Assembly (NCBI GenBank): GCA_029266035.1
Contig: JAJUFH010000022.1
Span: 1-53,369, forward strand
Origin: Sinomicrobium sp.
GTDB lineage: Bacteria > Bacteroidota > Bacteroidia > Flavobacteriales > Flavobacteriaceae
DNA length: 53,369 nt
Reading direction: 5' to 3'
Position numbers and translations under genes: made by a program. The stretch's first letter is position 1; every line of letters begins with the position of its first letter. The notes beneath the pieces were generated by a model. It saw only the letters and a list, made by a program, of their open reading frames with translations, had not been told where the DNA came from and searched no databases. Positions 25,976-49,345 of this stretch are shown one piece after another.

Positions 25976-27133
25976 TCATTTTTCCCTTTTAACGATATAC
26001 TTCGCTAGATCCTGTACATTTTCACAGCACAATTGCTCTAGCACCTGTTGCAATTGCATTTTTAGCATGGCTATGGTATGGTCGCCACCTTGATTTCCTA
26101 GGGCTCCAACACCGTACATAAAAGATCTTCCGAGAAATCCGAATTCCGCTCCGCTACCGAGCACCCGTGCTATATCGGGACCGGTGCGTATGCCGCTGTC
26201 CATCATCACGGTGATCTGATCCCTGTATTTTTCTGCGATTTCTGTCAATGGCTTTATGGTCGATTCTCCAGCATCGAGTTGACGTCCGCCGTGATTGGAA
26301 ACGATAATACCGTCAAAACCCAGTCGTACTGCTTCTTCTGCATCTTCGCATGAAGCCACACCTTTCAGCACTAACTTACCCTTCCACATATCGCGTATGG
26401 GTTTTATCTTTTCACTGTTCAACCTTCCGGAAAAAGTGGCATCCATCCATTTGCCGAGCTGTTTTATACTCATACCTTTTTCCATATATTTTTGCATAGT
26501 GGCAAAATTCGGAACCCCGTGTTTCAAGGTCTGTAGTGTCCAGGTAGGTTTACCCAATACCTGTAATACATTGCGCAGGTTGAGCTGAGGTGGCATAGCC
26601 AGTCCGTTTCTTATCTCTTTAGAGCGATACCCAAAGGTAGGCACATCGCACAAAACCACTAATACAGGACACTGGGCAGCTTCGGCCCTTTTTATAATGT
26701 CGTCCCTAAGCCAGTCTTCGGTTGGGTGATAAAGCTGAAACCACGCCCTTCCTTCAGTGAGTTCGCTGGCCCGTTCTATACTGGTAGTAGTTACAGTGCT
26801 TAGAATAAAGGGAATATTGTGCTTTAGCGAAGCTTTGGCCAGAATCTCCGGTGCATTGGGCCACATAAGTCCCTGGAGCCCGATAGGAGATATTCCAAAT
26901 GGTGCATCGTAGGATATTCCCATAAGCTCGGTTTTCAAAAGAGCATTACTGTAGTTTTTCAGATAGCGCGGTCTGAATTGTACCTCTCTGATCTCGGCGG
27001 TATTTCGCACTATATTGATGTTTTCGTTACACCCGCCGTCCAGATACTCAAAGGCAAATCCGGGCATACGTTTTTTTGCTCGTTGGCGAAGTACCTCTAT
27101 AGAAGGGTATTTAGTGTTGAAAGGAAAAGACAT
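25976..27133 (-). CDS. FMN-dependent 2-hydroxy-acid oxidase/dehydrogenase
   Basis: About 385 residues, from ATG 27133 (MSFPFNTKYPS; the longer ORF adds eight residues). It has FMN and substrate motifs of the L-lactate/glycolate/mandelate oxidase family: FEYLDGGC near the start, PFGISPIGLQGL, WFQLYHP, then IIVSNHGGRQLDAG with the catalytic His and GxR. It oxidises an (S)-2-hydroxy acid to the keto acid. Located 42 nt downstream of gntR and next to the PUL. In a sugar-acid locus it could oxidise L-lactate from a 6-deoxy-sugar route, or another hydroxy acid; the substrate cannot be fixed. Confidence 0.88.
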   Translation of the reverse strand: MSFPFNTKYPSIEVLRQRAKKRMPGFAFEYLDGGCNENINIVRNTAEIREVQFRPRYLKNYSNALLKTELMGISYDAPFGISPIGLQGLMWPNAPEILAKASLKHNIPFILSTVTTTSIERASELTEGRAWFQLYHPTEDWLRDDIIKRAEAAQCPVLVVLCDVPTFGYRSKEIRNGLAMPPQLNLRNVLQVLGKPTWTLQTLKHGVPNFATMQKYMEKGMSIKQLGKWMDATFSGRLNSEKIKPIRDMWKGKLVLKGVASCEDAEEAVRLGFDGIIVSNHGGRQLDAGESTIKPLTEIAEKYRDQITVMMDSGIRTGPDIARVLGSGAEFGFLGRSFMYGVGALGNQGGDHTIAMLKMQLQQVLEQLCCENVQDLAKYIVKREK

Positions 27134-27175
27134 AATAATTGGTAAATTCGGAATCAAAAAACTCCTCGGTCAAAA

Positions 27176-27850
27176 TTAATTTTTCATGGCGGCCAAAAGA
27201 TTGGCTTTGGCATTCAAACAGTGAGAAGTGGCCGCTTTTTCTAAAAGTTTTTCATCTCTCAAAGAAATGGCTTCCAGTATTTCCCGATGTTCAACAATTA
27301 CTTCTTCTACTCTATTCCCTTCAAAGCCATAGGAAAGCCTGAGACTGTTGATCAGTTGCGAGTGCTTCTCAATGATGTGCAAAGCTTCATCATTATCGGC
27401 CAATTGATAGAGTGTGGTATGAAATTGAGAGTTGCACTTTAGCATACTTTCTACGTCTCTTTTTACAGAAGCTTTTTCATAATTTTTCTGAGTCTGAAAA
27501 AGCTTTTTAATATCTCTATCTGTAACCTTCTTCAAACTTTCAAGAGTCAAAAATACCTCGATGATCCGCCTGATATCATATATATTACTGACAAATTTTT
27601 CATCCAGTTCCCTCACATAAGCACCTTTATGCGGTTCGATAATAATCAGTCCTTCCCCCTGTAGCTGCTGCAATGCCTCTCGTATAGGCATCTGACTTAC
27701 GTTGTATAACTTAATGAGCTCGGCGATCTTTAATCTGGTTCCCGGTGCGAAATAATTCGATAAAATATCTCTTCTCAAACACTCTCTAACCTTAGAATAG
27801 GTTGTATCTACTTTTCCATCTTGCTGTACTCTATTAATAAATTCTTTCAT
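27176..27850 (-). CDS. GntR/FadR-family regulator (FCD domain)
   Basis: A 224-residue regulator: winged helix with SQMPIREALQQLQGEGLIIIEPHKGAYV (quoted in parts: MPIREALQQLQGEGL, EPHKGAYVREL) near residues 50-85, then an FCD ligand domain with the metal-binding His/Asp set (e.g. NSQFHTTLYQLADN, EVIVEHREILEAI). FadR-type FCD regulators in sugar-acid loci commonly bind the acid or its phosphorylated keto-deoxy derivative. Divergent from the kinase gene at 27978 and upstream of the oxidase gene. The PUL has no SusR/HTCS/ECF regulator, so GntR is the best candidate. Confidence 0.9.
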   Translation of the reverse strand: MKEFINRVQQDGKVDTTYSKVRECLRRDILSNYFAPGTRLKIAELIKLYNVSQMPIREALQQLQGEGLIIIEPHKGAYVRELDEKFVSNIYDIRRIIEVFLTLESLKKVTDRDIKKLFQTQKNYEKASVKRDVESMLKCNSQFHTTLYQLADNDEALHIIEKHSQLINSLRLSYGFEGNRVEEVIVEHREILEAISLRDEKLLEKAATSHCLNAKANLLAAMKN

Positions 27851-27927
27851 ACTTTTTTAATGTAGTAGAAATACTTTCTCTATATTTATAATGAATAATC
27901 TCTACGACAAATTTAACAAAACAAATC

Positions 27928-27943
27928 ATATACAATATATAAT
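27928..27943. promoter_or_regulatory. AT-rich operator candidate between gntR and dgoK
   Basis: ATATACAATATATAAT lies in the divergent 127-nt gap. Similar A/T runs with TATATTATATATAAT and TATACAATAT lie before the dehydratase gene (46605-46622) and the MFS gene (48665-48695). High AT background makes coincidence possible. Confidence 0.4.
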
Positions 27944-27977
27944 TTAAAGATTTATATTTGACTTTTTAAATAAAGAA

Positions 27978-28940
27978 ATGAAGTTATTTTTAAGTATAGA
28001 CTGGGGCACCTCTTCTTTTAGAGCGAGATTAATCGAAACAGATTTAAACAGTATTAAAATTCTGCATGAAATAAAAAACAATCAGGGAATTTCACGTATT
28101 CATCAGTCCTGGTTGAAATCCGATAAAGGTATTTCGCGCTTCCAATTCTTCCTGAATGTCTTAGACGATACTCTAAAAACCATCAAGACAGAACAGAAAT
28201 TAAACATTGACAATGCTCCGATTGTTATTTCCGGAATGGCCTCCTCTTCGATCGGATGGTTCGAACTCCCCTATTCTTCTTTACCATTTGCACTGGATGG
28301 TAGTGGCCTAAATTACAAAATCATTGAGATTCCTTCATTTTCTCACCCTGTATTGTTACTCTCCGGTATTTGCAGCGATGACGATATAATGAGAGGAGAA
28401 GAAATACAACTTTTAGGCTGCTATACCAATGCAGAAACTGATAGTGTATATGTCTTTCCGGGAACACATTCAAAACACATACATATCAAGGATGGAAAGG
28501 TAATCTCGTTTAGAACCTATATGACTGGGGAAATATTTCAACTACTTACCGAAAATAGCATACTGAAAGACAATGTTGAAAAATCGGTTGCACTCCATTG
28601 TGAAGATTTTGTATCTGGAATACATCATGCACGAGAAAACAACTTTCTAAATGCGCTTTTTAAGGTCAGAACAAACGAAGTCCTTCACAAAATGAACAAA
28701 GCCAACAACTACAGCTTTTTAAGTGGATTATTGATCGGTACTGAAATATTGGAACTCAGCAAAAACGACCATCACATATACTTATGCCCTCATAAAAATT
28801 TAAGTAAAAATTACACTATCGCTATAAAAGAATCATCACTGGCAAACAGAGCAACCATCCTCTCTCATGAAGAGGTAGACAATTCGGTAATCAAAGGGCA
28901 TTTACTCATGTTGAAAAAACATCTTCTGGGATGGACTTAA
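27978..28940 (+). CDS. dgoK: 2-dehydro-3-deoxygalactonokinase
   Basis: Phosphorylates 2-dehydro-3-deoxy-galactonate (KDGal) to the 6-phosphate. 320 residues, about 30 longer than E. coli DgoK. N-terminal SIDWGTSSFRARLI matches the ASKHA/DgoK nucleotide-binding start, GMASSSIGW and RGEEIQLLG are family motifs, and FPGTHSKHIHIKDGKV is the DgoK signature PGTHSK-x-V. Divergent from gntR and convergent with the lactonase gene (18 nt between stops). The aldolase gene at 44773 would take its product. Confidence 0.92.
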   Translation: MKLFLSIDWGTSSFRARLIETDLNSIKILHEIKNNQGISRIHQSWLKSDKGISRFQFFLNVLDDTLKTIKTEQKLNIDNAPIVISGMASSSIGWFELPYSSLPFALDGSGLNYKIIEIPSFSHPVLLLSGICSDDDIMRGEEIQLLGCYTNAETDSVYVFPGTHSKHIHIKDGKVISFRTYMTGEIFQLLTENSILKDNVEKSVALHCEDFVSGIHHARENNFLNALFKVRTNEVLHKMNKANNYSFLSGLLIGTEILELSKNDHHIYLCPHKNLSKNYTIAIKESSLANRATILSHEEVDNSVIKGHLLMLKKHLLGWT

Positions 28941-28957
28941 AAATCCAGACACTGTCC

Positions 28958-29893
28958 CTATCTCGATTGCAACGATTGCCATTCGGTTGAGGAAATATCC
29001 ATTGCACTCTTCCTATTGTCAAATATATTGGAGGGCAATCCCTTAAACCCTGATTTTTTGACGACGAACAATGAACCTGCCAAAGGTTGTTGAGCCATTT
29101 CTTCATGGGTAAGCCCTACTTTGGCGGAAGTGATGTACAGATCTTCCAGTTTCTCTCCTCCAAAGGTACATGAAGTTACCCGTGATACGGGCAGTTTTAT
29201 CTCAAACAATTGAGTTCCCGTATGCGGATTCCATCTCGACACCTTCCATCCATCCCAATGTGAAATCCACAGCATTCCTTCATTGTCTATGGTCATCCCA
29301 TCCGGACTACCCTCGCCCTTAGGGATACTTATAATGTCCCGTTTATTAGAAATATCCCCACTGCTATTGTCGTAATCAAAGGCCATCACTTTTTGTGTAG
29401 GGGTATCAATCAGGTAAAACGATCTCTTGTCTACACTCCACACCATTCCATTGGAGATTGTCAGGCCTGAATATTTTTTCAAAACTGTGAGGTCCCTCTC
29501 CAAGGTGTATAAGCTCCCTGCATTTTTTATATTATTACCATCGTCCATTGTACCCACCCAAAACCTTCCATTCGGATCGCACTTGCCGTCATTAAAACGA
29601 TTTCCCGATCTATCCGATTCAGGATTTACAATAGTTTTGATATAACCACGCTCAAAATCAACAAAAAAAAGACCTTTTTTAAGTGCTGCTATCAGATGTC
29701 CTGACGAGCATTGAGCAATAGCTCCTATCTTTTGTCCTGTGTGAATGCTTTTTTGGCTATTACTCTTAGTATTATACCTGTGGATGTCACCACCAACAAC
29801 ATCAATCCAATAAATAGAGCTTGTTTCACTATCCCATACAGGTCCCTCTCCACACAAGCTCTTGATGTTTGTCAACACTTCCCAGTCCCTCAT
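28958..29893 (-). CDS. SMP-30/gluconolactonase-family lactonase
   Basis: Hydrolyses sugar lactones to acids. The 311-residue beta-propeller has the metal-binding Glu in CGEGPVWDS near residue 15, Asn in SNGMVWS near 148 and Asp in GSPDGMTID near 200, the calcium site of the SMP-30 family. No signal peptide, so cytoplasmic. Last gene of the PUL operon, reached directly from the upstream BNR gene. It would open a galactonolactone (or similar lactone) formed by the SDR gene at 46646 to feed the dehydratase. Confidence 0.88.
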   Translation of the reverse strand: MRDWEVLTNIKSLCGEGPVWDSETSSIYWIDVVGGDIHRYNTKSNSQKSIHTGQKIGAIAQCSSGHLIAALKKGLFFVDFERGYIKTIVNPESDRSGNRFNDGKCDPNGRFWVGTMDDGNNIKNAGSLYTLERDLTVLKKYSGLTISNGMVWSVDKRSFYLIDTPTQKVMAFDYDNSSGDISNKRDIISIPKGEGSPDGMTIDNEGMLWISHWDGWKVSRWNPHTGTQLFEIKLPVSRVTSCTFGGEKLEDLYITSAKVGLTHEEMAQQPLAGSLFVVKKSGFKGLPSNIFDNRKSAMDISSTEWQSLQSR

Positions 29894-29919: not shown

Positions 29920-31749
29920 TCAGTCAAAAGACAAAGACAACCATTCTTGCGGATAATCACTACTTTCTCCTTCCGCATATTCAATAGCAGATCGCGGTTT
30001 TTCGGTTGCAGTATCCTTGTAAAAATGTCTCAATTGTGCTTTAAACCTATCTTTTGAAGTGGGCTTACCGCCCAGTAAATCCCAGTCTATGCTCAATTTT
30101 GCCGAATACCCCAAGTCTTCATCCTCCACTTTATTGATGGTACCTACCACTTCTACACTTTCTGTCTTCCCTTTTTCAATCAAATGCCACGCATAGTTTT
30201 CCTCGCGGTAAACGAGGTATTCCCCGGCCGGATTGACCACTATCTTGTAATTGCGAAACACTCCTTCACCCTGATCTCGGCTGAGAAGAAGAACAGAGGC
30301 ATCTGAGTTTTCAGGGGTAAAGGCTATAATATTTTTGTCAAACAAGTAAGTAGCAAAAATAAAATTCTGATCGGTATAGCCGAAATTACTAAAAACAGAA
30401 CTCGTTGTCGCCTTTCCTAAAAACCAGTAATCATTGGCATCCTTATCAAATTCTGACAACGAAGACATTACAAGATCTCCCTTGCGGATTGTTTTGGCGT
30501 AATTAAGACGTCCCTGCATAATGTGAATCTTACCGCGGGTTGCGCCAGTACTGTCTTCATAGCGTTCGGTTCCGGTGGATATAACCTTATTATTACCGAT
30601 GTAATCTACAGAGCCCCAATAGGCGACAAATGGCGATGTGGCAAAACGAAAATTATCTGCTTTTTTGTCCCCGATCAGCGTCCAGATTCCCTCTTCCCCT
30701 TTATAGGTGCCATTGCATTGTATAACCATCTCCCCTGTACCGAGTTTAGTTGAATAGGGTCCGTAACCAATCAGATCTTTATTGACCTGTTTTCTATACG
30801 GATAGGCTGGTCCCCCTTCCTTAATTATTTTTTCCTGATCTGCCGAATGCCAGTTCACATCCGCATCTGTCTTGACCACTATCGGTGTCTGATCGACCAC
30901 CAGTTTACCACTCCACACTTCCAGTGGTACTGCAATTCCGTTATTGTCGTCGAGCAACACCGCGGTAGGCATCCCGTCGTATGCAAAACGTTCGTCGACG
31001 GTACGGGATATGGTTTCATTATCTTGGTAAGTAGCCAGTTTCTTTCCCTGCCAGGTAACCCCATTGTCATAGGAACGGATGATAACCGTTCTGGGGTAAG
31101 ATACTTTATCGACAACATCCTGACTGGAGGTTATATACATCTGAATTTCTCCCGACGGAAGCTGTAGCATGGCCGGTTCCCAGCATCGACCCCGATATAC
31201 TTCTCGCGGAGCGGTAAATGTCTTTCCCTTATCGCTGCTGAACATAACTTCTACACCGCAATTTTTATTGGTGTTGGGGATATCGTGATATCCTTTTTTA
31301 TAACGCCATTGGTAAGCGATCATAATACGGCCATCACTCAATTCAATAAAGTCGGGATTTACAAATACCTTTTCATCTTCGCCAACGGTAGAAGTCGCTT
31401 TAAAACTCTGCCGTATCAGTTGGGCATCACTCCAAGTTTTACCGTTGTCTGTGCTTCGTCTGACGTATATGTCCCATCCGAAGTGATCGTTGGAAAAAGA
31501 CATGAGTAAGGTACCATCTGATAATTTCTTTATCCGTGAATAATAGAGGTTCTGTTCTGTAAAGTCCTTGTTACCGACATCGACAGAAGACATCTCCTGA
31601 TAGGTACTTCTATCCCAAGCGATGCGAACATTCCCTCCTCTATCATTTTGGGCATCTGTACTGTCGATACCAGCAAATAGAGTAATGGCGGTTAAACCGA
31701 GATGAAAATATGTCGAGAATCTATTTTTAGAATTATTTAGCTTTTGCAT
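29920..31749 (-). CDS. Secreted BNR/sialidase-fold protein 1
   Basis: A 609-residue exported protein with a signal peptide ending near GIDSTDA. Asp-box (SxDxGxTW) motifs are RRSTDNGKTW, FSSDKGKTF and SYDNGVTW, at roughly 75, 155 and 205, which mark a six-blade sialidase-type propeller. The C-terminal part (from about 470) has a beta-sandwich-like appearance. In PULs this fold covers exo-sialidases, GH93 exo-arabinanases and others. Sialic acid genes (lyase, NanE, NanK) are absent, so a sialidase is doubtful and another exo-acting glycosidase more likely. 26 nt upstream of the lactonase gene. Confidence 0.8.
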   Translation of the reverse strand: MQKLNNSKNRFSTYFHLGLTAITLFAGIDSTDAQNDRGGNVRIAWDRSTYQEMSSVDVGNKDFTEQNLYYSRIKKLSDGTLLMSFSNDHFGWDIYVRRSTDNGKTWSDAQLIRQSFKATSTVGEDEKVFVNPDFIELSDGRIMIAYQWRYKKGYHDIPNTNKNCGVEVMFSSDKGKTFTAPREVYRGRCWEPAMLQLPSGEIQMYITSSQDVVDKVSYPRTVIIRSYDNGVTWQGKKLATYQDNETISRTVDERFAYDGMPTAVLLDDNNGIAVPLEVWSGKLVVDQTPIVVKTDADVNWHSADQEKIIKEGGPAYPYRKQVNKDLIGYGPYSTKLGTGEMVIQCNGTYKGEEGIWTLIGDKKADNFRFATSPFVAYWGSVDYIGNNKVISTGTERYEDSTGATRGKIHIMQGRLNYAKTIRKGDLVMSSLSEFDKDANDYWFLGKATTSSVFSNFGYTDQNFIFATYLFDKNIIAFTPENSDASVLLLSRDQGEGVFRNYKIVVNPAGEYLVYREENYAWHLIEKGKTESVEVVGTINKVEDEDLGYSAKLSIDWDLLGGKPTSKDRFKAQLRHFYKDTATEKPRSAIEYAEGESSDYPQEWLSLSFD

Positions 31750-31793: not shown

Positions 31794-32909
31794 CTAATCT
31801 GTGCCTGTCATACTTTTGATAAACTCAATTTCTTCGTTACTGTACGCACTACCGTCCTTTCGGAAAATATCGTGAAACCAAACCTCTGGTTCCGGAGCTC
31901 CTTCCTCACTCCCCCACGGATAGTGAAAATTGGCTTTTCCCGCAACTAATCCAAAGCTGATTGCTCCGATATTTTCACTTTTGAACACGGGCATGGTATT
32001 CTCAAAAGTAGATCCTATTGTACGCCCCATATACTCGGTACACACCAACGGTCGTCTGAAAGCCCTGAGCAATTGAATATACTTTTGGGTGATTTCCGGT
32101 TTATGGTAGTTATGAAAAGTAATAATATCGCAATTTTCTCCTAAAAAACTCACGATGTCAAGCGCTGTCCTATCCTCTCCGGGTATTTTCCAAATAGGAG
32201 ATGTTAAAGGCTGAGACGGGTTCATACTTCTTGCCCATTCAAAGACTTTCCTCAGTAAAGGCAGACTGTAAGCTCCGCGTCTAGGGTTTTCAGGTTCGTT
32301 GTACAGCGACCAAAATAACACTCGTTTATCGTCTTTAAAACTTCCGACTATATCTTTTATGTATTTCTCTAACGGAGCCCATTTAGATGGGTCATTTACT
32401 ATTTCCGATCCGGGCGATTGCACCCATCCGGAATTGTGCACTCCTGGAATAGGTGGGGCTTGCTCTCCTAATTGAGGGATCTTGGAATCGTCAAAGGTAC
32501 CATTGGTAAAAAACGTAATAATTACTTTAATGCCATGTTTTTCCGCTATACCGAGAACTTTGTTGAGCCTGTTCTTAAACGCGTCAGGATCTTCTCCCCA
32601 AACCAGATTGTGTAAAAAGATCCGCACGGTATTGAATCCGATATCCTGTGCCCAACCCAATTCTCTGTCTATTGTCTCAGTGTCGAATGTTTCTGCCTGC
32701 CACATCTCTATCTGATTGATTGCGGTAGATGGCACAAAATTACATCCCACTATCCAAGGTTGTTGCTCATACCATTCCTTGGCCTTTTCTTCAGACCAAC
32801 GAACCGTTGGATCAGTGCTATTGGTATCATCAGGCTTCTTCTCGACACAGGAAGTATAACTCATCGCAAAAAGAATAGTCAATATCAGGAAAAGAGATTT
32901 TTTATACAT
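31794..32909 (-). CDS. GH5-like (clan A) glycoside hydrolase lipoprotein
   Basis: A lipoprotein: MYKKSLFLILTILFAMSYTSC with the lipobox Cys (start ATG 32909). (beta/alpha)8 clan-A motifs: GFNTVRIFLH near the front, WSLYNEPENP with the acid/base Glu in the centre (about residue 215 of the long frame), DIITFHNYH, and PLVCTEYMGR with the nucleophile Glu near 300. The WIVGCNFVPSTAINQIEMW opening is characteristic of a widespread cellulase-like Bacteroidota group often labelled GH5 or 1,4-beta-xylanase; its true specificity is untested. Fifth of the surface or periplasmic genes. Confidence 0.85.
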   Translation of the reverse strand: MYKKSLFLILTILFAMSYTSCVEKKPDDTNSTDPTVRWSEEKAKEWYEQQPWIVGCNFVPSTAINQIEMWQAETFDTETIDRELGWAQDIGFNTVRIFLHNLVWGEDPDAFKNRLNKVLGIAEKHGIKVIITFFTNGTFDDSKIPQLGEQAPPIPGVHNSGWVQSPGSEIVNDPSKWAPLEKYIKDIVGSFKDDKRVLFWSLYNEPENPRRGAYSLPLLRKVFEWARSMNPSQPLTSPIWKIPGEDRTALDIVSFLGENCDIITFHNYHKPEITQKYIQLLRAFRRPLVCTEYMGRTIGSTFENTMPVFKSENIGAISFGLVAGKANFHYPWGSEEGAPEPEVWFHDIFRKDGSAYSNEEIEFIKSMTGTD

Positions 32910-32945
32910 ATTTGTCCTGTTTTTAATACAATTCATATTTTTCGA

Positions 32946-34064: not shown

Positions 34065-34074
34065 CTTTTCATTT

Positions 34075-37986: not shown

Positions 37987-38060
37987 TTGTTTGAATTTAT
38001 AGTGAAACTGGAAAATGGTAAAGCTAATGATAACTTCCTTCAATTTCCGGATAATGTATT

Positions 38061-39824: not shown

Positions 39825-39834
39825 GGTTAAAGTT

Positions 39835-42800
39835 TTAAAATTTGACATTGATACCCAGCGAATACTGCTTCGGATTAGCATAGTAATTCATAGTGTCGGT
39901 AAATTCTGGATCCATACCCGGATAGTCTGTAAATGTCAACAGGTTTTCCCCGCTAACAAATATGTAAAGGTCTTGTAAATGAATTTTTTCGAGCCATTTA
40001 TTCGGTAATTTATAACCGAGAGTTAAATTTCTCAATTTCAGATAATCGGCTTTATAGAGCCATAGTGTGGAATAATTTGTTCCCCCATTTTGTTCTGATC
40101 CGTAATTCATAGTCAAACGCCCGTGTTGTGAATTTATATTGGTACGGGGATCACTGGGATTTTCAGGATCGTAGAAGTAGTGGTCATAAGCTATGTCTTT
40201 GTTTAAGGTGAGGTCTCCACGTGTAGAATACGAATTAAAACCAGCATACCTCCAGTATACTGAATGTCCTCCTGCTCCGGCCCATAACATTGACAGGCTA
40301 AGTCCTTTCCATTCCATATTCAACTGAAAACCATAGGTATATTTTGGAGTCATTGAAACATTCTGGAACATATAGTCATTTTCATCGCCATAAACCCCAT
40401 CTCCGTTAACGTCGTCATAGATATAATCTCCATACCAAATGCCGTTTTTCCCTATAGTTCGATTGGGCAGGAAAGTATTGCCCAATCCGATCATAGCCCT
40501 CAGCCACTCCATATCGCTCTCGGTGCGAATCATACCGTCACGTGGTCCCCCTTTTGGGTTTACTGAACCATCACTTAGAAAATAAGAATTATCTCCCGAA
40601 TAGGTGTTTAGCAAATAATACTCATTGATCAATTTTCCTTCCATAGTACGGCGTGTATTATCCACTACGGTAGCTACATCGCCTATATTGCTCTGGTAGG
40701 TACGAAAACCGTTCTCATCGGTAACCCAGCCTGCATTGAGACGCCCGTTGAGTTTGGTTACTTGATTGTGATTCCTGCTAAAGTTTGCCGATATCCCGTA
40801 ACTAAAGTCATTGATTTTATCTCGCCAGCTGAGATTGAGCTCAAAACCTTTATTTGTAACTTCTGCAATATTCTGATAGGGTGGTGATTTTACTCCAACC
40901 GAGGCAAAAACCGGTGCGCGAAACAGAATTCCGTCAGTGACCTTGTGGTAGAGGTCTGTCTCTAGCCTGAGCCTGTTGTCCAAAACCCCTAATTCAAGAC
41001 CTAGATTAGACATAGTAGTTGTTTCCCACTCTAAGAGATTATTGGACAGGGACGAAACTATACCGGTAACCTGGGTTCCCCCGAAGGAGTAAGTCGAACT
41101 CGCGGCATAGGTTGACTGATAATCGTAATTTCCTATGCTGTGATTACCGAGTTTTCCCCACGATCCTCGCAATTTGAGATCATCGATGGCTATATTTTCC
41201 ATAAATTCTTCTTCCGAAATACGCCAGCCGGCAGATAAAGAAGGAAATACCCCCCATCGTGATTCCCTAGCAAAGCGTGAAGATCCGTCATAACGAATAT
41301 TCGCCTCAAACAAATAGCGATTGTCATAACCGTATTGCAAACGCCCAAAGAATGACCTTGTAGCAAAATCGGTCTGACTTCCCGTAGAAGAAACCATATT
41401 ATTTACTGTATTTAATTCAGGTAACTGATCGCTGAGAAAACCGTTTTTCTCTGCAAAAGCATAGCTGGAATTATCGTACATAGACTCATAACCTAACAAT
41501 ACTGAAACATCGTGTTTTTGAGCGAATAATTGACTCCAAGACAGGGTATTCTGAAAAGTACGACGATAGCCTTCTTCGTTGTTTACCCTGAGGAACAATC
41601 TATCTAAGTCTTCGTAAAAATATGTCCAATCACCTGTTCGGAACGAGTAGGCATTGAGCGTTTGTGAATTGTACTTATAACCTCCGTCTCTTTTGATATA
41701 ATTAAAAGAGGTCTTGAATTTTATATTATACGGAAGATCAAAATTGGCAAATACAGTCGTATTGGTATAGAAGTTTTTTTCCTTTCCCCGCGAGCGATTG
41801 GCAAAGTAGAGGTTGTTTCGCGAATTGGAGTTCTGCTCGGGGTTTTCCATCCATCCGTACTTTCCGTCATAATACGGATAAATACCCGGAACGGCTCGAG
41901 ACAAGAAATTAAAAGAGCCTCCATTCAAATCGTTCATCTCTCTGTGACTTTCATACCCCCATATTTTAGTTCCTATTTCCAGCCATTCGGTGACCTTTGT
42001 TGACACATTAGCCCGCAATGAATATTTCTCTACTCCCGAATTTTCGATAACTCCGGGATTATTCATATAAGTCATAGACAACAGATAGCTGGTACCATCT
42101 TTTGCTCCCGAATAAGAAAGATTGTGTTTTTGGTAAATATCCCGATGAAAAAAAGATTTCATCCAATCTGTATTCGGATAAGCCACGTAATTCGGATAGC
42201 CCGAATCTGCAAGTCCGTGCGGATCTTTTTCTTTTTCGCGCCACAGGTCGATCATGGATTGAGAAAACGGAAGGGCAACATCGATATTCTCGGCCGATTC
42301 GTTTATTAAGGACATATAATCGGCGTAGTTAGAAACCACACCCAGATAATTTTGGGGAGTATTTATAGCTATCACACTATTGTATGAGATTACGGGCTTC
42401 GAATTACCAGTTTTTGTAGTGATCAACACCACCCCATTTGCGGCTCTGTTTCCGTAAATAGCACTAGAGGCTGCATCTCTCAGTATAGAAACACTCTCTA
42501 TATCATCGGGATTTACATTGCCTATTGTACTTTCAAATCCGTCTACGATCACCAATGGAGCTGCATTATTGAGTGTCCCCACCCCGCGAATACGCAGCAT
42601 AACTCCTTCTTCTCCGGGTCTACCTGAAGACTGTTGTACCATAAGCCCCGGACTAAGCCCGGAAAGTATCCCAGCTGTAGTGGTTGCAGGCCTCGACAGC
42701 ACCTGATCTCCATAGTCTACAGAGGTAACAGATCCCGTAACATTGGCCTTTTTTTGCACTCCGTAGCCTACTACAACTACCTCGTCCATTGCAGTAGTGC

Positions 42801-43101
42801 TCGATTCCATGGTCACTTCTATATGCGTACGGCCATTGACGGAAACTTCCAGGGAAGTGTATCCGATATAACTAAATACCAGTACGGCATCGGTGCTGCA
42901 TTCTATTTCAAATACTCCGTCAAAATCTGTAACGGTTCCCTGATTTTTATTTAAAACCACAATAGAGGCTCCCGGAAGAGGTATCCCCTCTTCGTCAACG
43001 ACTTTTCCGTTTACCGTGCTTGTTGTTTCCTGAGCTCCTGCTATTCTGAAGAGGAACAAAAAGAAAATAACAAATAGCGGATAATTAATTCTGTTCAACA
43101 T
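39835..43101 (-). CDS. susC: SusC-like TonB-dependent receptor
   Basis: A 1088-residue outer-membrane protein. Signal peptide (FFLFLFRIAGAQE), a carboxypeptidase-D-regulatory-like domain at about 25-110 (STVNGKVVDEEGIPLPGASI), TonB box/linker MDEVVVVGYGVQKKANVTGS, plug with SGLSPGLMVQ and RGVGTLNNAAPLVIVDGF (quoted in part), then a barrel ending in YSLGINVKF with a terminal Phe. It imports the oligosaccharide bound by SusD using TonB energy. Four residues from the SusD start; upstream lies the fimbrillin-like gene, 69 nt away. Confidence 0.95.
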   Translation of the reverse strand: MLNRINYPLFVIFFLFLFRIAGAQETTSTVNGKVVDEEGIPLPGASIVVLNKNQGTVTDFDGVFEIECSTDAVLVFSYIGYTSLEVSVNGRTHIEVTMESSTTAMDEVVVVGYGVQKKANVTGSVTSVDYGDQVLSRPATTTAGILSGLSPGLMVQQSSGRPGEEGVMLRIRGVGTLNNAAPLVIVDGFESTIGNVNPDDIESVSILRDAASSAIYGNRAANGVVLITTKTGNSKPVISYNSVIAINTPQNYLGVVSNYADYMSLINESAENIDVALPFSQSMIDLWREKEKDPHGLADSGYPNYVAYPNTDWMKSFFHRDIYQKHNLSYSGAKDGTSYLLSMTYMNNPGVIENSGVEKYSLRANVSTKVTEWLEIGTKIWGYESHREMNDLNGGSFNFLSRAVPGIYPYYDGKYGWMENPEQNSNSRNNLYFANRSRGKEKNFYTNTTVFANFDLPYNIKFKTSFNYIKRDGGYKYNSQTLNAYSFRTGDWTYFYEDLDRLFLRVNNEEGYRRTFQNTLSWSQLFAQKHDVSVLLGYESMYDNSSYAFAEKNGFLSDQLPELNTVNNMVSSTGSQTDFATRSFFGRLQYGYDNRYLFEANIRYDGSSRFARESRWGVFPSLSAGWRISEEEFMENIAIDDLKLRGSWGKLGNHSIGNYDYQSTYAASSTYSFGGTQVTGIVSSLSNNLLEWETTTMSNLGLELGVLDNRLRLETDLYHKVTDGILFRAPVFASVGVKSPPYQNIAEVTNKGFELNLSWRDKINDFSYGISANFSRNHNQVTKLNGRLNAGWVTDENGFRTYQSNIGDVATVVDNTRRTMEGKLINEYYLLNTYSGDNSYFLSDGSVNPKGGPRDGMIRTESDMEWLRAMIGLGNTFLPNRTIGKNGIWYGDYIYDDVNGDGVYGDENDYMFQNVSMTPKYTYGFQLNMEWKGLSLSMLWAGAGGHSVYWRYAGFNSYSTRGDLTLNKDIAYDHYFYDPENPSDPRTNINSQHGRLTMNYGSEQNGGTNYSTLWLYKADYLKLRNLTLGYKLPNKWLEKIHLQDLYIFVSGENLLTFTDYPGMDPEFTDTMNYYANPKQYSLGINVKF

Positions 43102-43170: not shown

Positions 43171-44736
43171 TCAATCGATTGAGAATGTAACACTGCTTAC
43201 ATCGGAACCTGCCAAATACAGATAGAACGGCGCTCCGTATGATGATCCACTTGTCCAGGGTGTGGTACGTTCAGCCACAGTAGTGTCGGTATCAGCCTGA
43301 ATAGAACCGTCGGCACAGCTTATCCTGATCTTAATATTTCCGCTTTCTACAGCTTCGGAAAACACCATAGTGTGTTCGATAATCTTTCCGCCACGTACCA
43401 ATGAGAAGGTGGCCTCACGTGTATATGCCGGATCATAACAGGTAATCTCGGTCTTGTTGGACTTCCATTCCTCTCCGTCGAGATACTCTATGTTCCAAAA
43501 TACAGGTCCCTGTCTGGTGTACATCGGAAACTTAACAGTTACAGCTGTCCCTGCCTCAAACTTTTTGACGGGGAGTACGAATTCCAAATAATCGCCAGTC
43601 CAAATCCCTTTTATCCCCGGACTGCTTATTTCTCCGCTATTAACCGTTTCAAGGAATTGTATCGGACTGGGAGCAGGGTCGCTCTGCTTATGCCACTGTG
43701 CATAGGCCTGGGTTTGCTCAGGATTGGTCCATATCCCTTCAGTTTCCCATCTGGGTTGATTTGTCTTAGTAAAGTTGGCGACATCGTTAGTTTTTCCAAG
43801 AGGGAAAACAACGGGGAAGGTCACAGGGATAATTCCGTCATTATCCTTGCTCAAATATTGGGTCATCACCTCCCCTGCGGCCAGTACAGTCCCTTCGTCT
43901 TCCTCTGCACTGAGTATATTGACCGTCGTTTCATTGCCCGACATGTCAGTGAGCACGACATCCATTCCTCCCGAGGGGACCGTAAACGGAGCTACCGACA
44001 GCTTAACTTTTGTAAACGACTCTACAAGTTTAATCCCCGTTTCTCCAAAGTCTACCTGAACCATATCCCCTTGTTTCTCCGCATCGCTTGTAAATTCGCC
44101 TGTCTCAAGATTGTAGGTACCGCCATCTACCAATACTCCTTCAAAATTTTCGGAAACGGCGGGCTTCAGGCTTAACTTTCGCACTGTAGTATTTTCTTCA
44201 CCGTCAAGAATATCGTTGGGGAGATAAAGTTCTACCGTACTGAATATGCCTTTAAAATCCAATCCAACGGTTGGTACAACTGTAGTAAGTTGCTTATTAG
44301 CTACATAAAAACCAAACTCTTCCGGACTTGTGGTATAAAGCTGGGTAGCTGGCAACTGCGCCGGTATTGCCGATATATCTTCCACTGTATCCGAATAAGG
44401 AAAATAAGCGTAAAACTTAAAATTATGGTCTCCTGCAATCGCTTCGATCCGGTCATTCTCCGAAGCTTCACCAAAATAAGTTTCTTCGCCTTCTACTTCA
44501 GCTGTATATCTCGCATTGGTATTAGCACTCATCCCGACATTTTGCGTATCACCCCTTGTACAGCTGCTAAAAATGCCGATTTCATCGCCGGTTGCCCATG
44601 ATTTACCTGTCAATGCTCCTTCAAATTTCACGTTGAGCACATCGAAATCCAAGCTACCGTTATTGTCCGACGACTCTGTACAACCCATCATAAAAATGAT
44701 TAGCATACACATTGTTGAATTAATTATTTTCTTCAT
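43171..44736 (-). CDS. Fimbrillin-like surface lipoprotein (possible glycan-binding protein)
   Basis: A 521-residue lipoprotein (MKKIINSTMCMLIIFMMGC). The N-terminal 300 residues have Mfa/FimA fimbrillin-like features: WATGDEIGIFSSCT, FKFYAYFPYSD, and LDFKGIFSTVELYLPND. The C-terminal ~200 residues form a different beta domain with Trp/Tyr-rich stretches (IKGIWTGDYLEFVLP, WNIEYLDGEEWKSN). In PULs the place next to SusC/D normally holds a surface glycan-binding protein (SusE/F-like), and this may play that part. It lies upstream of SusC rather than downstream of SusD, which is unusual. Confidence 0.7.
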   Translation of the reverse strand: MKKIINSTMCMLIIFMMGCTESSDNNGSLDFDVLNVKFEGALTGKSWATGDEIGIFSSCTRGDTQNVGMSANTNARYTAEVEGEETYFGEASENDRIEAIAGDHNFKFYAYFPYSDTVEDISAIPAQLPATQLYTTSPEEFGFYVANKQLTTVVPTVGLDFKGIFSTVELYLPNDILDGEENTTVRKLSLKPAVSENFEGVLVDGGTYNLETGEFTSDAEKQGDMVQVDFGETGIKLVESFTKVKLSVAPFTVPSGGMDVVLTDMSGNETTVNILSAEEDEGTVLAAGEVMTQYLSKDNDGIIPVTFPVVFPLGKTNDVANFTKTNQPRWETEGIWTNPEQTQAYAQWHKQSDPAPSPIQFLETVNSGEISSPGIKGIWTGDYLEFVLPVKKFEAGTAVTVKFPMYTRQGPVFWNIEYLDGEEWKSNKTEITCYDPAYTREATFSLVRGGKIIEHTMVFSEAVESGNIKIRISCADGSIQADTDTTVAERTTPWTSGSSYGAPFYLYLAGSDVSSVTFSID

Positions 44737-44772
44737 ACCTAAAGATTTAGTGTTGGTTGATATTTATATGTT

Positions 44773-45417
44773 TCAGGATATACAGGAAACAAATGTCTTC
44801 AATCGCTTTTCCAAAGCTTTCCAATCTTTTTTATCGATGATTTCTTTACTAAAAATTCCTCCAGATACCCCAACACCGCTTGCACCAGAATTAAGGTAAT
44901 CACGAACATTGGCAGCGTTGATACCTCCGGTAGGCAATAGTTTGATATTGTCGAATGGCGCTATAATATTACTGAAGTACTTAGCTCCTAAATTATCAGC
45001 CGGAAACACCTTGACCATAAAGGCTCCCAGCTTCCACGCTCTATAAATTTCCGTAGGAGTAAAAGCTCCACAAAAAACTGGCACTCCTATCTTTACACAT
45101 TCCCTAACCACCTCTTCGTCGAGGTTGGGAGTCACTATAAATGAAGCGCCATAGCTCAAAGCCTTCTCCAGATCTTCCCTACAACAAACGGTTCCCACCC
45201 CTATATTCAGCTTATCACCAAAATGATTGGTGGCATAATTGACCGATCTCTCCACATCCTCGGTATTTAGGGTAACCTCTATTGTTCTTAATCCTTCAGC
45301 AAGGCAAAGCGGCAAAATATGAGCGATATCGTCTACTGCTACCCCTCGTAGGATACCAATTACAGGAAGCTCTTCAAAAAAACTCCAATTAAAATCGGCC
45401 TTTGTCTTCTTTTCCAT
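44773..45417 (-). CDS. dgoA: KDPG/KDPGal aldolase
   Basis: Splits 2-keto-3-deoxy-6-phosphogluconate or -galactonate into pyruvate and glyceraldehyde 3-phosphate. Start ATG 45417 (MEKKTKADFNW). 214 residues with the class I fold: PVIGILRGV, IEVTLNTE, GVGTVC, FIVTPNLDEEVV, and FMVKVFPADNLG, which holds the Schiff-base Lys near 134; GGINAANVRDYLNSGA at the end. The DgoK kinase next to gntR makes its likely substrate. 14 nt downstream of the dehydratase gene. Confidence 0.92.
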   Translation of the reverse strand: MEKKTKADFNWSFFEELPVIGILRGVAVDDIAHILPLCLAEGLRTIEVTLNTEDVERSVNYATNHFGDKLNIGVGTVCCREDLEKALSYGASFIVTPNLDEEVVRECVKIGVPVFCGAFTPTEIYRAWKLGAFMVKVFPADNLGAKYFSNIIAPFDNIKLLPTGGINAANVRDYLNSGASGVGVSGGIFSKEIIDKKDWKALEKRLKTFVSCIS

Positions 45418-45430
45418 AGAACAAATTATC

Positions 45431-46597
45431 CTATTTACTAAAATAATCCCCTGCATCGGCAGGTCTGATTTCCGTTAGTTTTCCGTTGTAATGCCTTAAG
45501 TCGTGAGGCTGATAAGGGTATTTGGAAAAATTCTCTATTTTGAGATCGATCCCTAATCCGGGAGCATCACTGATATACATAAAACCATCCGAAAACTTAA
45601 CGTCTTCTGTTGTCAGCTCCCTTCGATAAGGGATATCTACACTCATGGTTTCTAAGAGATAAAAATTGGGCGTACAAGCAGCCAATTGTAAGGTAGCCGC
45701 ATTAGCGATTGGACCGATAGGATTGTGCGGACATATGGGGATGTGGTAACTCTCTGCCATAGCCGCAATTTTTCGTATTTCGGAGATCCCTCCAGAATGG
45801 CTTACGTCGGGTTGTATAAAATCGGCACACCCCATATTTAAAAAACTGCGGTACTCCATTCTTCCATACGACCTTTCTCCTGCAGCAATAGACACCTTAC
45901 TTCTTTTCTTCAGCTCAGCGAGACCTTCTAGGTTTTCAGGAGGTAAAGGTTCTTCAAACCAAAGTACTCCGAAGTCTTCCATGGCCTGGGAAAGTTTTAC
46001 GGCAGTGGGTAAATTAAACCTACCATGCCCCTCTATCAGTATTTCAATTTCACTTCCAACGGCATCTACTACAGCCGCAATACAGGCTATAGCCTCATTG
46101 AACTGCTTTTTTGTAAGTGTCAGATACGCAGAACCGAAAGGATCCCATTTTAAACCTTTAAAACCCTTTTTCACTACTTCTTTTGCCTTAGAAGCAAATT
46201 CGTCTGGGGTCTTGGCCGGAGCAAACCAACCGTTGGCATAACAGGGAACCTTATCTCTTACCTTTCCACCAAATAGTTGATAAACCGGCACCCCTAACTC
46301 CTTGCCTTTTATATCCCATAAAGCCATTTCCACACCTGCCATTGCACTCATTAAAACTGGTCCCCCACGCCAGTATGAATTTCGCAATGTATCGTGAAAA
46401 AAAGCTTCGATATTGTGGGGGTCCTTCCCGACCAAATGCCTGTTTAACTCCTGAACAGCAGCTTCCACCGTAAGTTCTTGATGCTCCAAAGTGGCCTCAC
46501 CCACACCGTATATACCAGAATCGGTCAACACTTTTACAAAGACCCAATTGGTCCGATAAACATCGCAAATGTAGGTTTCAATTTTTGTTACTTTCAT
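45431..46597 (-). CDS. Enolase-superfamily sugar-acid dehydratase (galactonate dehydratase-like)
   Basis: 388 residues of the mandelate racemase/muconate lactonizing type. Metal ligands are E189 (IEGHGRF), E215 (WFEEPLPP) and E241 (AAGERSYG). His bases are H191 and H291 (CPHNPIGPIAN), the pair used by GalD-type acid-sugar dehydratases. KWDPFG near residue 150 is shared with gluconate/galactonate dehydratase-like members. It would remove water from a galactonate-type acid to give KDGal. A cycloisomerase acting on 3,6-anhydrogalactonate, as in agar breakdown, is an alternative that also leads to KDGal. Downstream of the SDR gene, upstream of the aldolase. Confidence 0.85.
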   Translation of the reverse strand: MKVTKIETYICDVYRTNWVFVKVLTDSGIYGVGEATLEHQELTVEAAVQELNRHLVGKDPHNIEAFFHDTLRNSYWRGGPVLMSAMAGVEMALWDIKGKELGVPVYQLFGGKVRDKVPCYANGWFAPAKTPDEFASKAKEVVKKGFKGLKWDPFGSAYLTLTKKQFNEAIACIAAVVDAVGSEIEILIEGHGRFNLPTAVKLSQAMEDFGVLWFEEPLPPENLEGLAELKKRSKVSIAAGERSYGRMEYRSFLNMGCADFIQPDVSHSGGISEIRKIAAMAESYHIPICPHNPIGPIANAATLQLAACTPNFYLLETMSVDIPYRRELTTEDVKFSDGFMYISDAPGLGIDLKIENFSKYPYQPHDLRHYNGKLTEIRPADAGDYFSK

Positions 46598-46604
46598 AAG
46601 ATAT

Positions 46605-46622
46605 GATATATTATATATAATT
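46605..46622. promoter_or_regulatory. AT-rich operator candidate upstream of the dehydratase
   Basis: GATATATTATATATAATTTT lies 8 nt upstream of the start, in the gap to the SDR gene. Related to A/T sites at 27928 and 48665. Low specificity. Confidence 0.3.
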
Positions 46623-46645
46623 TTTAATTTGATAAAAAAAGACTT

Positions 46646-47395
46646 TTATCTAAAGTAAAGCCCTCCGTTGATATCCAGTGTTATCCCCGTGATATACCTT
46701 CCTCCCTCACCACATAAAAAGGCTACAGAAAGCCCTACATCTCTGGTATTTCCCAAACCTAAAGGAATGGATGCTCCAAGTTTTTTCATCCCCTCCTCTC
46801 CGTGTGTCGTTCTCGAAAGTTCTGTCTCTATAACACCGGGTGCAATAGCATTTACTCGGATACCAAAGGTAGCACCTGTTCTGGCTAGAGCTTTGGTAAC
46901 TCCAAATATCCCGCTTTTGGATGCTGAATAGTGTACGTGGCCTTTTAGAGCACCTTGATGACCGACAACAGAACTCACATTGACAATACTACCTCCTTTT
47001 TTCTTCATGATTTCCATGGCGTATTTAGAGCACAAAAAACAACTGGTAATATTTGTTTTCATAATAAATTCCCAGTCAGATAGTGAGGTGGCAAATATAT
47101 CCTGTGACTTATCCGTTCCCGCATTGTTGACCAAAATATCCAATCTACCGTATTCGCTGTAGATACTTTCAAACATCGACTTCACTTCTTCTTCTGAGGT
47201 CACATCCGCCTTTATAAAAATGCATTTTCTACCCAGCACCCTAATAGTTTCGACCACTTCCTTTACCGCATCATCGAGTTTCAGATCGTTGATAAAAATA
47301 TCAGCTCCTTTCTCAGCAAGCACCAGAGCTATGCCCTTTCCGAGTCCCCTTCCCGATCCTGTTACCAGCGCAACCTTGCCTTTTAAATCTTCCAT
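46646..47395 (-). CDS. SDR oxidoreductase (sugar 1-dehydrogenase-like)
   Basis: 249-residue classical SDR: TGSGRGLGKGIAL (NAD site) near residue 12, NNAG near 89, SSVVGHQ with catalytic Ser near 142, YSASKSG with Tyr/Lys near 156, and GGLYFR at the C-terminus. Similar in length and motifs to FabG, gluconate 5-dehydrogenase and galactose/fucose 1-dehydrogenases. In this operon it is the only dehydrogenase that could make a lactone for the SMP-30 enzyme, so galactose-type 1-dehydrogenase is the favoured reading; KduD-like action on a keto-deoxy sugar is the alternative. 48 nt downstream is the dehydratase start. Confidence 0.88.
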   Translation of the reverse strand: MEDLKGKVALVTGSGRGLGKGIALVLAEKGADIFINDLKLDDAVKEVVETIRVLGRKCIFIKADVTSEEEVKSMFESIYSEYGRLDILVNNAGTDKSQDIFATSLSDWEFIMKTNITSCFLCSKYAMEIMKKKGGSIVNVSSVVGHQGALKGHVHYSASKSGIFGVTKALARTGATFGIRVNAIAPGVIETELSRTTHGEEGMKKLGASIPLGLGNTRDVGLSVAFLCGEGGRYITGITLDINGGLYFR

Positions 47396-47426
47396 ACCAC
47401 AAAATGTTTATACGTATTCATTTCTG

Positions 47427-48644
47427 TTATTCTACAATTTTGTCTTTGTGAAAAGAGGAAACACAAGCCCATAAGATCAATAGTCCTCCTACGATGTAAA
47501 AGACAGCGAGTAATGCCAAACCTGACGTCAAGCCCACCAATGGCTTCATCATCCCCAAAATAGTAGGTGCAAACGAACCAATGATATAAGCAAACATAAT
47601 CATAGATGCGGCTACCGAAGCTCTGTTTTCCTCTTTCGTCACCGAAAACAAGGAGGCGTATATATTAGAGTCGTACATCCCTCTAAACAAGCCAAACAGA
47701 CCTAGACCAATATATACCCAAAATAGCGATTCCCCCATTGCCATCATAATGATAAAAGGTGCCCCAAGCAAAAGGGAAAAGGCCTGCAATCGCAATCTCA
47801 TCACTCGATTTTTGGCGGCTAAGCGATCTGATAGCTCACCGGCAACCATCACACCTACAAAAGCAAAAATATGGTGATAGAACATAGACGAAAAACCTGC
47901 TTCGGTTACAGACAGCGAAAATTTTTCGTGTAAAAAAGTAGGCGTCCAAGTCAGATATCCCACATTGACAAAGACCATACAGGAAAAAGCCCCTGTCAAC
48001 AATACAGCAGTCTTCTTTTGCAGTAACAACCTGACTCCACTAATCAGGGAAACACTCGCCTCTCGTTTTTCCCTGCGCTTGCCGTCCTCCAACCTAAAAT
48101 ACATTAAAAGGAAAAGGAGAACACCTATTCCTCCAAAAATAAAAAAAGCAGTCCTCCAACCGTAATTCTCTGAAATATAAGCTCCTAAAAATCCACTCCC
48201 AATAATCCCCGCGTAAAGTGCTGTCTGGTGAATGGCCATGGCCAGACCGATTTTTGAATTAAACTTCTCCCCAATCAAGGCATTGGCTGCCGGAGCATAA
48301 AAAGCCTCGCTCCCTCCAACGATAGATCGAAGGATAATTAAGGTGATTATCCCACCTGAAAAACCCGTTAAAAGTGTGGAAAGACTCCATATTAAAACAC
48401 TGAAAATGATAACTCCCTTTTTGCTGAACTTATCTCCCACATAGCCGGCCACAGGCACCATAACCCCAATAGCTAATATGAAAACAGACGAGATTAACCC
48501 TAGCTGGGTATCTGATAGTTCTAGGTCCAATTTGATGATTGGCAAAGCCACATTAAATATCTGCCTGTCCGCCTGATTAAAGAAAAACGCAAGCCAAAGA
48601 AGTGAAATTACCTCCCAGTTAAATTTTTTGTGATTTTTTTTCAT
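47427..48644 (-). CDS. MFS transporter (ACS family, sugar-acid type)
   Basis: 405 residues from ATG 48644, twelve membrane segments. Motif A-like GYVGDKFSKKG follows segment 2, and FNQADRQIFNVALP near the start matches ACS-type transporters (hexuronate, galactonate, tartrate). First gene of the long operon, head-to-head with the tRNA region. It would take a monosaccharide acid or a released sugar across the inner membrane. The substrate cannot be read from the sequence. Confidence 0.85.
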   Translation of the reverse strand: MKKNHKKFNWEVISLLWLAFFFNQADRQIFNVALPIIKLDLELSDTQLGLISSVFILAIGVMVPVAGYVGDKFSKKGVIIFSVLIWSLSTLLTGFSGGIITLIILRSIVGGSEAFYAPAANALIGEKFNSKIGLAMAIHQTALYAGIIGSGFLGAYISENYGWRTAFFIFGGIGVLLFLLMYFRLEDGKRREKREASVSLISGVRLLLQKKTAVLLTGAFSCMVFVNVGYLTWTPTFLHEKFSLSVTEAGFSSMFYHHIFAFVGVMVAGELSDRLAAKNRVMRLRLQAFSLLLGAPFIIMMAMGESLFWVYIGLGLFGLFRGMYDSNIYASLFSVTKEENRASVAASMIMFAYIIGSFAPTILGMMKPLVGLTSGLALLAVFYIVGGLLILWACVSSFHKDKIVE

Positions 48645-49339: not shown

Positions 49340-49345
49340 TATTCG

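Follow-up and report, generated by a model that had tools for sequence, protein, structure and literature searches.

The DNA analyzed here (the window; 53,369 bases) comes from the 3.05 Mb, 51-contig genome of a Sinomicrobium sp. and carries a polysaccharide utilization locus (PUL) of 16 genes, in which genes for a galactonate-type sugar acid pathway and for a GntR regulator lie among genes for glycan binding and cutting. SusC and SusD adjoin one another, alongside glycan-active genes. Thirteen genes form a single minus-strand series, from 48650 down to 28958, with a largest gap of 69 bp and some overlaps, a few of which may be shorter because gene starts were set at the first possible position. 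The remaining three encode DgoK, GntR and an FMN-dependent 2-hydroxyacid dehydrogenase of the LldD type (Table 1).

A preliminary description of this sequence had listed an SDR dehydrogenase, an SMP-30 lactonase, an enolase-family dehydratase, DgoK, an aldolase, SusC/D and a GH50-like protein, together with two BNR proteins, an SGNH esterase, a GH5-like enzyme and GntR. Family searches recovered every one of these where it had been placed. The description had also set the pathway genes within 13 co-directional genes; such a run does extend from the MFS gene to the SMP-30 gene, but DgoK sits on the plus strand, outside it. Three other members of the locus had not been named: the MFS transporter, a fimbrillin-like lipoprotein and the FMN-dependent dehydrogenase. 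The stated lack of a sulfatase is true of the locus but not of the genome, which has nine sulfatase matches, none on the window's contig, nor of the orthologous locus described below, which contains one. As had been claimed, no usual PUL regulator was found by family searches among the listed open reading frames of at least 150 amino acids at 25–53 kb.

Table 1. Predicted features of the locus and its upstream edge, with profile scores given as bits against the cut-off.
Feature	Coordinates	Strand	Basis or remark
tRNA-Arg(acg)	49345..49419	-	Upstream edge of locus; ARAGORN
Two overlapping operator-like palindromes	48669..48692	.	Upstream of MFS; 1 mismatch to Parapedobacter palindrome; two best distinct sites
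MFS transporter	47427..48650	-	First gene of 13-gene operon; MFS_1
SDR dehydrogenase, proposed sugar 1-dehydrogenase	46646..47395	-	adh_short
Operator-like palindrome	46604..46620	.	SDR-DgoD gap; 3 mismatches; third best distinct site
DgoD-type dehydratase	45431..46597	-	NCBIfam galactonate dehydratase
KDPG/KDPGal-type aldolase	44773..45456	-	Aldolase; eda subfamily
Fimbrillin-like lipoprotein	43171..44736	-	Mfa_like_1; Cys at residue 19
SusC	39835..43101	-	TonB receptor barrel, plug and CarbopepD domains
SusD	38061..39881	-	SusD_RagB, SusD-like_3
BNR protein a, CBM9-like C-terminal domain	36160..38067	-	CBM9_1 32.2 vs 23.4; BNR_2 28.9, below 31.4
GH50-like protein	34075..36144	-	Similarity to GH50 agarases; Lys446, Glu592
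SGNH/GDSL esterase	32946..34088	-	Lipase_GDSL_2 72 vs 32.9; GDS and D--H motifs
GH5-like hydrolase	31794..32936	-	Cellulase (GH5) 30.5 vs 23.5
BNR protein b, sialidase-like	29920..31749	-	BNR_2 44.8 vs 31.4
SMP-30 type lactonase	28958..29893	-	Last operon gene; SGL
DgoK, 2-keto-3-deoxygalactonokinase	27978..28940	+	DGOK; divergent from GntR
Operator-like palindrome	27926..27942	.	GntR-DgoK divergent gap; >3 mismatches; fourth best distinct site
GntR/FCD regulator	27176..27850	-	GntR and FCD domains above cut-off
FMN-dependent 2-hydroxyacid dehydrogenase (LldD type)	25976..27157	-	18 bp after GntR; FMN_dh 376.8

The De Ley–Doudoroff pathway runs from a dehydrogenase (here the SDR) through a lactonase, a dehydratase and a kinase to an aldolase, and we infer the flow of substrate in this locus from gene families because the gene set matches that order. 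The dehydratase scored 354.8 bits on the NCBIfam galactonate dehydratase equivalog model (cut-off 311) and is probably a galactonate dehydratase; its best solved relative is 3rr1, a putative D-galactonate dehydratase, with which two His-bearing motifs (HGR and PH-P) aligned. The sugar lactonase step has a predicted enzyme in the SMP-30 protein (SGL, 286.1 against 26.3), as does the 2-keto-3-deoxygalactonokinase step in DgoK (DGOK, 200.8 against 25). For the aldolase, the eda subfamily model was exceeded (160.5 against 156.05), and the score on the 2-keto-3-deoxy-6-phosphogalactonate (KDPGal) aldolase model fell below the cut-off (144 against 207). In the PDB its first match was a Thermotoga maritima-type aldolase for 2-keto-3-deoxy-6-phosphogluconate (KDPG), and the KDPGal aldolase 2v81 (3.1e-27) ranked above most other KDPG aldolases. 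The SDR reached 208.9 bits on the glucose 1-dehydrogenase subfamily (cut-off 215); its best row was a FabG model, also below cut-off, none of the 25 rows listed, out of 233, exceeded its cut-off, and its PDB matches were mostly FabG. The galactonate-type pathway of the preliminary description thus appears good at the level of families, except that the SDR is tied to no substrate and the aldolase to neither KDPG nor KDPGal. For the MFS protein, the best NCBIfam row was the D-galactonate transporter TIGR00893, far below cut-off (129.3 against 395 bits). The LldD-type protein fell below the cut-offs of L-lactate dehydrogenase models (281.6 against 376, and 245 against 550). BNR proteins a and b are paralogs (26% identical), and a profile of four BNR proteins matched sialidases at 1.4e-7; the predicted model of BNR b was too poor to use (mean pLDDT 42.9).

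All 16 genes are also present in Parapedobacter sp. SGR-10 (stretches L115 and L035). Identities range from 46% for DgoK, 51% for the aldolase and SMP-30 and 58% for LldD, through 64% (fimbrillin-like lipoprotein), 65% (GntR, SDR, GH50-like), 68% (MFS), 69% (BNR b) and 70% (SusC, SGNH), to 74–75% (BNR a), 75% (SusD), 77–78% (GH5-like) and 86% (DgoD). The two loci share, in addition, the operator-like palindromes and a Lys in the GH50-like protein, both described below. They differ in the extra sulfatase of Parapedobacter, and in that DgoK and LldD there lie on one strand, divergent from GntR. RpoB of the window's genome is 76% identical to that of Parapedobacter, 98% to that of its own genus and 87% to those of two family members. 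The dehydratase, GH5-like protein and SusD are thus at about the level of RpoB or above it, and the other locus genes are below; no GH50 match was found in a genome of the same genus (G094). These identities, the lack of a GH50 match in that genome and the tRNA-Arg gene at the edge of the locus suggest that the locus was shared by horizontal transfer. Overall, the locus is real, conserved and unusual.

The preliminary description had proposed control by GntR, and conserved palindromes support this. In Parapedobacter a perfect 17-base palindrome lies between DgoK and GntR, and related palindromes precede the MFS gene. The motif was picked while comparing both genomes, so the later scans were not blind to it. 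A pattern scan gave four window matches, of which three overlap at 48669–48692, against a mean of 0.25 in shuffled sequence, and seven at three gaps in L115, against 0.07; L035 had no match. We also built a weight matrix on the three sites of Parapedobacter, each in both orientations, and scored all 106,706 positions of the window, on both strands. The four best distinct sites were at 48676 and 48669 (before MFS), 46604 (SDR-DgoD gap) and 27926 (GntR-DgoK gap), the fourth scoring 16.1 against 10.6 for the best coding site. These gaps are AT-rich (10–35% GC), which favors such a motif; 11 other listed stretches scored 0.3 to 9.6. The sites support GntR control of all parts of the locus, which would include the LldD-type gene that follows GntR.

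For the GH50-like protein, a scan of named genomes confirmed 176 stretches, the best 80 of which were kept. These 80 loci come from Parapedobacter, Pedobacter, Bacteroidales, Alistipes, Verrucomicrobia, Kiritimatiellae, Lentisphaerae, Planctomycetia and others, many of them from rumen or gut. Neighbors were counted as best matches at E ≤ 1e-10 over half of the reference, and 79 of the 80 loci had any such match; the counts are lower bounds, as flanks reached up to 10 kb and often ended with the contig. The GH50-like gene is accompanied by an MFS gene in 13 loci, DUF6259 in 11, LutB in eight, LutA in seven, an isomerase-like protein in six and DUF4380 in five. The dehydratase subfamily occurs near it in nine (eight in the flank table, plus Parapedobacter, where it is just outside the first flank). 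Dehydratase and isomerase-like protein never share a locus in the table, and most of the 80 loci have neither.

In profile comparisons the isomerase-like protein is distantly related to arabinose and fucose isomerases. Its predicted model was fair (mean pLDDT 57.7) and in Foldseek matched arabinose isomerases first and fucose isomerases next, with TM about 0.5 and a root mean square deviation over 12, values that speak to the fold class only. Its presence in six loci without the dehydratase suggests that the sugar has the galacto configuration. In L037 (7227–9092) and L102 (7109–8965), a protein of 618–621 residues without a Pfam match is encoded between the isomerase-like and ROK kinase genes; the C-terminal half of the L037 copy resembles mannose-6-phosphate isomerase.

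Among 12 genomes chosen for a GH50-like gene, four had a close copy of the dehydratase (63–86% identity; a fifth match, at 33%, was excluded), in the locus in three cases and, in the fourth (G786), away from it beside MFS and DUF4380. By comparison, two of 395 phylum genomes, the window's own included, had it at E ≤ 1e-100. In the other (G352) it lies near MFS, DUF4380 and SDR genes on a contig that ends with no GH50 gene visible; this copy (L127) has its MFS gene in two frames and one internal stop in the dehydratase, from either decay or sequencing error. At E ≤ 0.001, GH50 was matched in 10 of 199 family genomes (apart from the window's own, the top five are 36–43% identical), and at 1e-60 in five of 395 phylum genomes, both counts including the window's genome. 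BNR b had no match at 1e-40 besides itself in 246 order genomes. One protein query of viral contigs with the GH50-like protein gave no match, plasmid searches with DgoD, GH50-like and SMP-30 gave no match reaching 60% identity, and the neighborhood of a Martelella DgoD gave no clue to the substrate.

Taken together, these data make it probable, if only slightly so, that the locus is a PUL spread by horizontal transfer, directed at a galacto-configured glycan other than agar, and feeding its sugar into a galactonate route under GntR control. The gene families, the way the genes are ordered and the sites are read from the sequence; the sequence of reactions, the substrates, the repression and where the proteins reside are our interpretation. 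SusC/D and surface lipoproteins (the BNR-CBM9, GH50-like, SGNH and GH5-like proteins) would bind, deacylate and cut the glycan, and the MFS transporter would import the product. The SDR would oxidize the sugar to a lactone, SMP-30 would open this to the acid, and DgoD would dehydrate the acid to 2-keto-3-deoxygalactonate (KDGal), which DgoK would phosphorylate for cleavage by the aldolase to pyruvate and glyceraldehyde 3-phosphate. GntR would repress the MFS-led operon, an internal DgoD promoter, DgoK and GntR-LldD through TTGTATATAATATACAA-like palindromes, and the LldD-type enzyme would oxidize a lactate-like acid from the same glycan. Four pathway enzymes above curated family cut-offs (dehydratase, DgoK, lactonase, aldolase), the complete Parapedobacter ortholog, the recurrence of the dehydratase near GH50-like genes and the conserved operator-like sites all favor this account. 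So does an MBL-fold protein in L040 and L045, which have no SMP-30 gene in the flanks examined; it suggests a lactone-opening step there.

Several observations weigh against it. Neither the SDR nor the aldolase is tied to a galactose substrate by family or PDB comparison. A close SDR was counted in L040 alone among the 80 loci (others are 27–31% identical), and DgoK was found in two of 13 genomes searched, the window's and that of Parapedobacter, so the pathway in related loci must be completed by other means. The dehydratase of L040 passes the galactonate cut-off of 311 (335.3), but that of L105 does not (291.6). The MBL-fold protein is above no lactonase cut-off. A genome search, limited among the Leloir genes to galactokinase, found such a gene in the host; plain D-galactose therefore would not need a galactonate-type route. 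Nor does the proposed route produce lactate. It is chiefly here, on lactate and galactokinase, that the plain explanation falls short; the glycan may bear a group that yields lactate, or contain a second sugar, or else LldD acts on another acid. Finally, the GH50-like protein lacks an acid/base Glu.

This last point rests on clear similarity to GH50, as the protein matched four agarase sequences of known structure with E-values of 1.3e-76 to 9.6e-70. We aligned 93 rows: the window, 12 from other loci, among them L026, and 80 from the named loci, of which 78 contributed (L063 and L093 had no reading frame within the span limit, and L060 and L065 gave two rows each). Of these, 92 are distinct (L026 and L047 represent the same gene), and another seven pairs share at least 95% identity. 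All 93 rows have Glu at the nucleophile position, 592 in the window. The acid/base column is Glu in 91; Lys occurs only in the window (446) and in Parapedobacter (453), encoded by AAA in both. The protein thus retains one of the two active-site Glu of a GH50 β-agarase and has Lys446 in place of the other. Two active-site Glu are described as conserved in GH50 models (PMC8551122); the acid/base assignment draws on this, on conservation and on alignment with agarases of known structure. In agreement, columns 446 and 592 are the sole fully conserved Glu columns in the other rows. Conservation reaches 95% or more across the other 91 rows in 83 columns, of which 76 are kept by the window, 74 by Parapedobacter and 57 to 74 by six other rows (including a short one) that still have the Glu. 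Six changes are common to both genera (W407L, E446K, S567T, N569D, Y571F, and H637S or A), one more is confined to the window and three to Parapedobacter. Both frames are open, and with a nonsynonymous divergence (dN) of 0.26 and a synonymous divergence (dS) too large to estimate, the comparison is in line with purifying selection on the gene.

Such a protein might be a dead scaffold or a binding protein, with the GH5-like and BNR proteins doing the cutting, which we judge a serious possibility, somewhat short of an even chance. It is compatible with the PUL for a galacto-configured glycan proposed above, and the two probabilities overlap. The exchange of Glu for Lys in both orthologs speaks for it, as does the place of the GH50-like protein among the less conserved proteins of the locus (65%, against 77–78% for the GH5-like protein and 74–75% for BNR a). 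The invariant nucleophile, the 76 retained columns and the six shared changes at conserved positions speak against a dead protein. A search of open-licence papers found nothing on DUF6259, on combined GH50-mechanism topics or on glycoside hydrolase pseudoenzymes.

The gap left by lactate could be closed if the architecture is as proposed above but the sugar is a modified or related galacto-configured one (a lactyl ether, a 6-deoxy sugar or other) that releases lactate for oxidation by LldD or LutABC. LldD and LutABC are unrelated systems for lactate oxidation. An LldD-type gene is present in both orthologs; LutB and LutA recur among the 80 loci, and LutA abuts the GH50-like gene in two of them: in L040 it begins 1 base past the end of that gene, and in L102 it begins 4 bases short of the end. 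The galactokinase of the host points the same way. However, DgoK needs a free C6 hydroxyl on its substrate, which counts against 6-deoxy sugars at that step, and no etherase or lactaldehyde dehydrogenase was found among the 20 window proteins scanned. FMN_dh proteins also act on many hydroxyacids. On balance we regard a modified sugar as rather unlikely, although well worth weighing.

Less probable again, and in our view unlikely, is a joint reading in which the GH50-like protein is active with a rebuilt catalytic center and cuts a galacto glycan other than agar, one that yields lactate, by a mechanism not described for GH50. Asp569 would then perhaps serve as proton donor, or Lys446 hold a charged group, and lactate might possibly come from a 3-O-lactyl group that is lost as the dehydratase acts. 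Lactate from the glycan would explain the LldD or LutABC genes.

It is very improbable that a sugar acid operon merely landed beside an unrelated PUL. DgoK, GntR and LldD are indeed arranged differently in the two genomes, but the pathway and glycan genes form one operon without large gaps, are conserved together in Parapedobacter, and the dehydratase recurs with GH50-like genes in other phyla.

The preliminary description had raised agar as the target should the dehydratase be a 3,6-anhydrogalactonate cycloisomerase. Three loci from the window's own GTDB family (L020, L021 and L033) do combine GH50 with an enolase-family protein that we take to be cycloisomerase-like and an aldehyde dehydrogenase, and two (L020 and L033) additionally carry a presumably GH117-like protein; by library these are MR_MLE and a GH43 match, respectively. 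On the galactonate model (cut-off 311) the cycloisomerase-like proteins score no more than 136 and 130 bits; they are about 25–26% identical to the window's dehydratase, and have the active-site motifs VKIKI and VDAN where the latter has KWDPFG and EGHGR. A search of the window's whole genome found nothing that matches the GH117-like protein, whereas the control genome G283 gave a match at 85%. For the cycloisomerase-like protein it found no ortholog; the best match, at 26%, was the DgoD-type dehydratase itself (control, 82%). No aldehyde dehydrogenase is among the 20 window proteins scanned, the genome not having been searched for it, and all three proteins are missing from the flanks, up to 10 kb, of the 80 GH50-like loci. 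In a tree of the 93 GH50 rows, L020, L021 and L033 fall in a six-row clade (support 1.0; agar-type genes were looked for in these three of the six rows) outside an 81-row clade (support 1.0) that contains the window's protein. Despite the similarity of its GH50-like protein to agarases, an agar locus with a cycloisomerase here and an anhydrogalactose dehydrogenase elsewhere is therefore disfavored by identity, motifs, genome searches, tree and neighbors alike, and is the least credible of the alternatives. Carrageenan is not favored either: no GH16, GH82, GH127 or GH129 is among the 20 window proteins scanned, and no genome-wide search was made.

Between the MFS promoter and tRNA-Arg, the window has a 20-bp tandem repeat array (49033–49152) and a perfect 24-bp inverted repeat (49280–49340). 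A PL8 lyase gene (49528–51624), a chondroitinase AC relative below that model's cut-off, is unlikely to belong to the locus, as it lies beyond the tRNA gene, its upstream gap (51625–51742) lacks any strong match to the operator, and the 37 kb of Parapedobacter read gave none to PL8. Upstream of the locus, genes for a MobA/VirD2-type relaxase (8563–9543), a Toprim-like protein and an AAA ATPase at 7883–11961 are part of a mobilizable element. The window also encodes a Fic family protein with a SoFic-like C-terminal domain (17152–18246) and two adjoining long WG-repeat proteins (20002–24821).

Compared with known systems, the locus matches the De Ley–Doudoroff pathway by family in its lactonase, galactonate dehydratase and DgoK and has a candidate dehydrogenase and aldolase, but places them inside a PUL and adds an LldD-type gene. 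With GH50 β-agarases and the agar-type loci L020, L021 and L033 it shares the GH50 family, the nucleophile Glu and the presence of catabolic genes in the locus; it differs in the Lys at the acid/base position and in having DgoD instead of GH117-like, cycloisomerase-like and aldehyde dehydrogenase genes. For an agar PUL, the galactose is assumed to be fed into the Leloir pathway (PMC5943477), and GH50 was described in 2021 as exclusively β-agarases (PMC8551122). The non-marine GH50-like clade, with its many rumen and gut members, has no agar-type genes in 80 flanks and in part a galactonate-type or isomerase route and lactate oxidation; its loci point to a glycan used across several phyla. The search for that glycan can start from the regulator, the candidate operators and the set of enzymes of the present locus, and the exchange of Lys for Glu in a retaining-type active site lends itself to a direct test. 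The closest published parallel in our comparison is the carrageenan PUL 7 of Pseudoalteromonas carrageenovora, a galactan PUL with a galactonate dehydratase and a lactonase; the loci compared with it also have an SDR, a GntR ‘galactonate operon’ repressor, an MFS transporter, a KDGal kinase and an aldolase (PMC6262041). According to the same text, that PUL has its own carrageenases, sulfatases, anhydro-D-galactose dehydrogenase and cycloisomerase, none of which is among the window proteins scanned, whereas the window has GH50-like, BNR and GH5-like proteins. Since a carrageenan PUL with galactonate genes is published, this kind of locus is known; the present one is set apart by its proposed glycan, the GH50-like clade and the exchange of Lys for Glu, and the new observation is the active site of the GH50-like protein.

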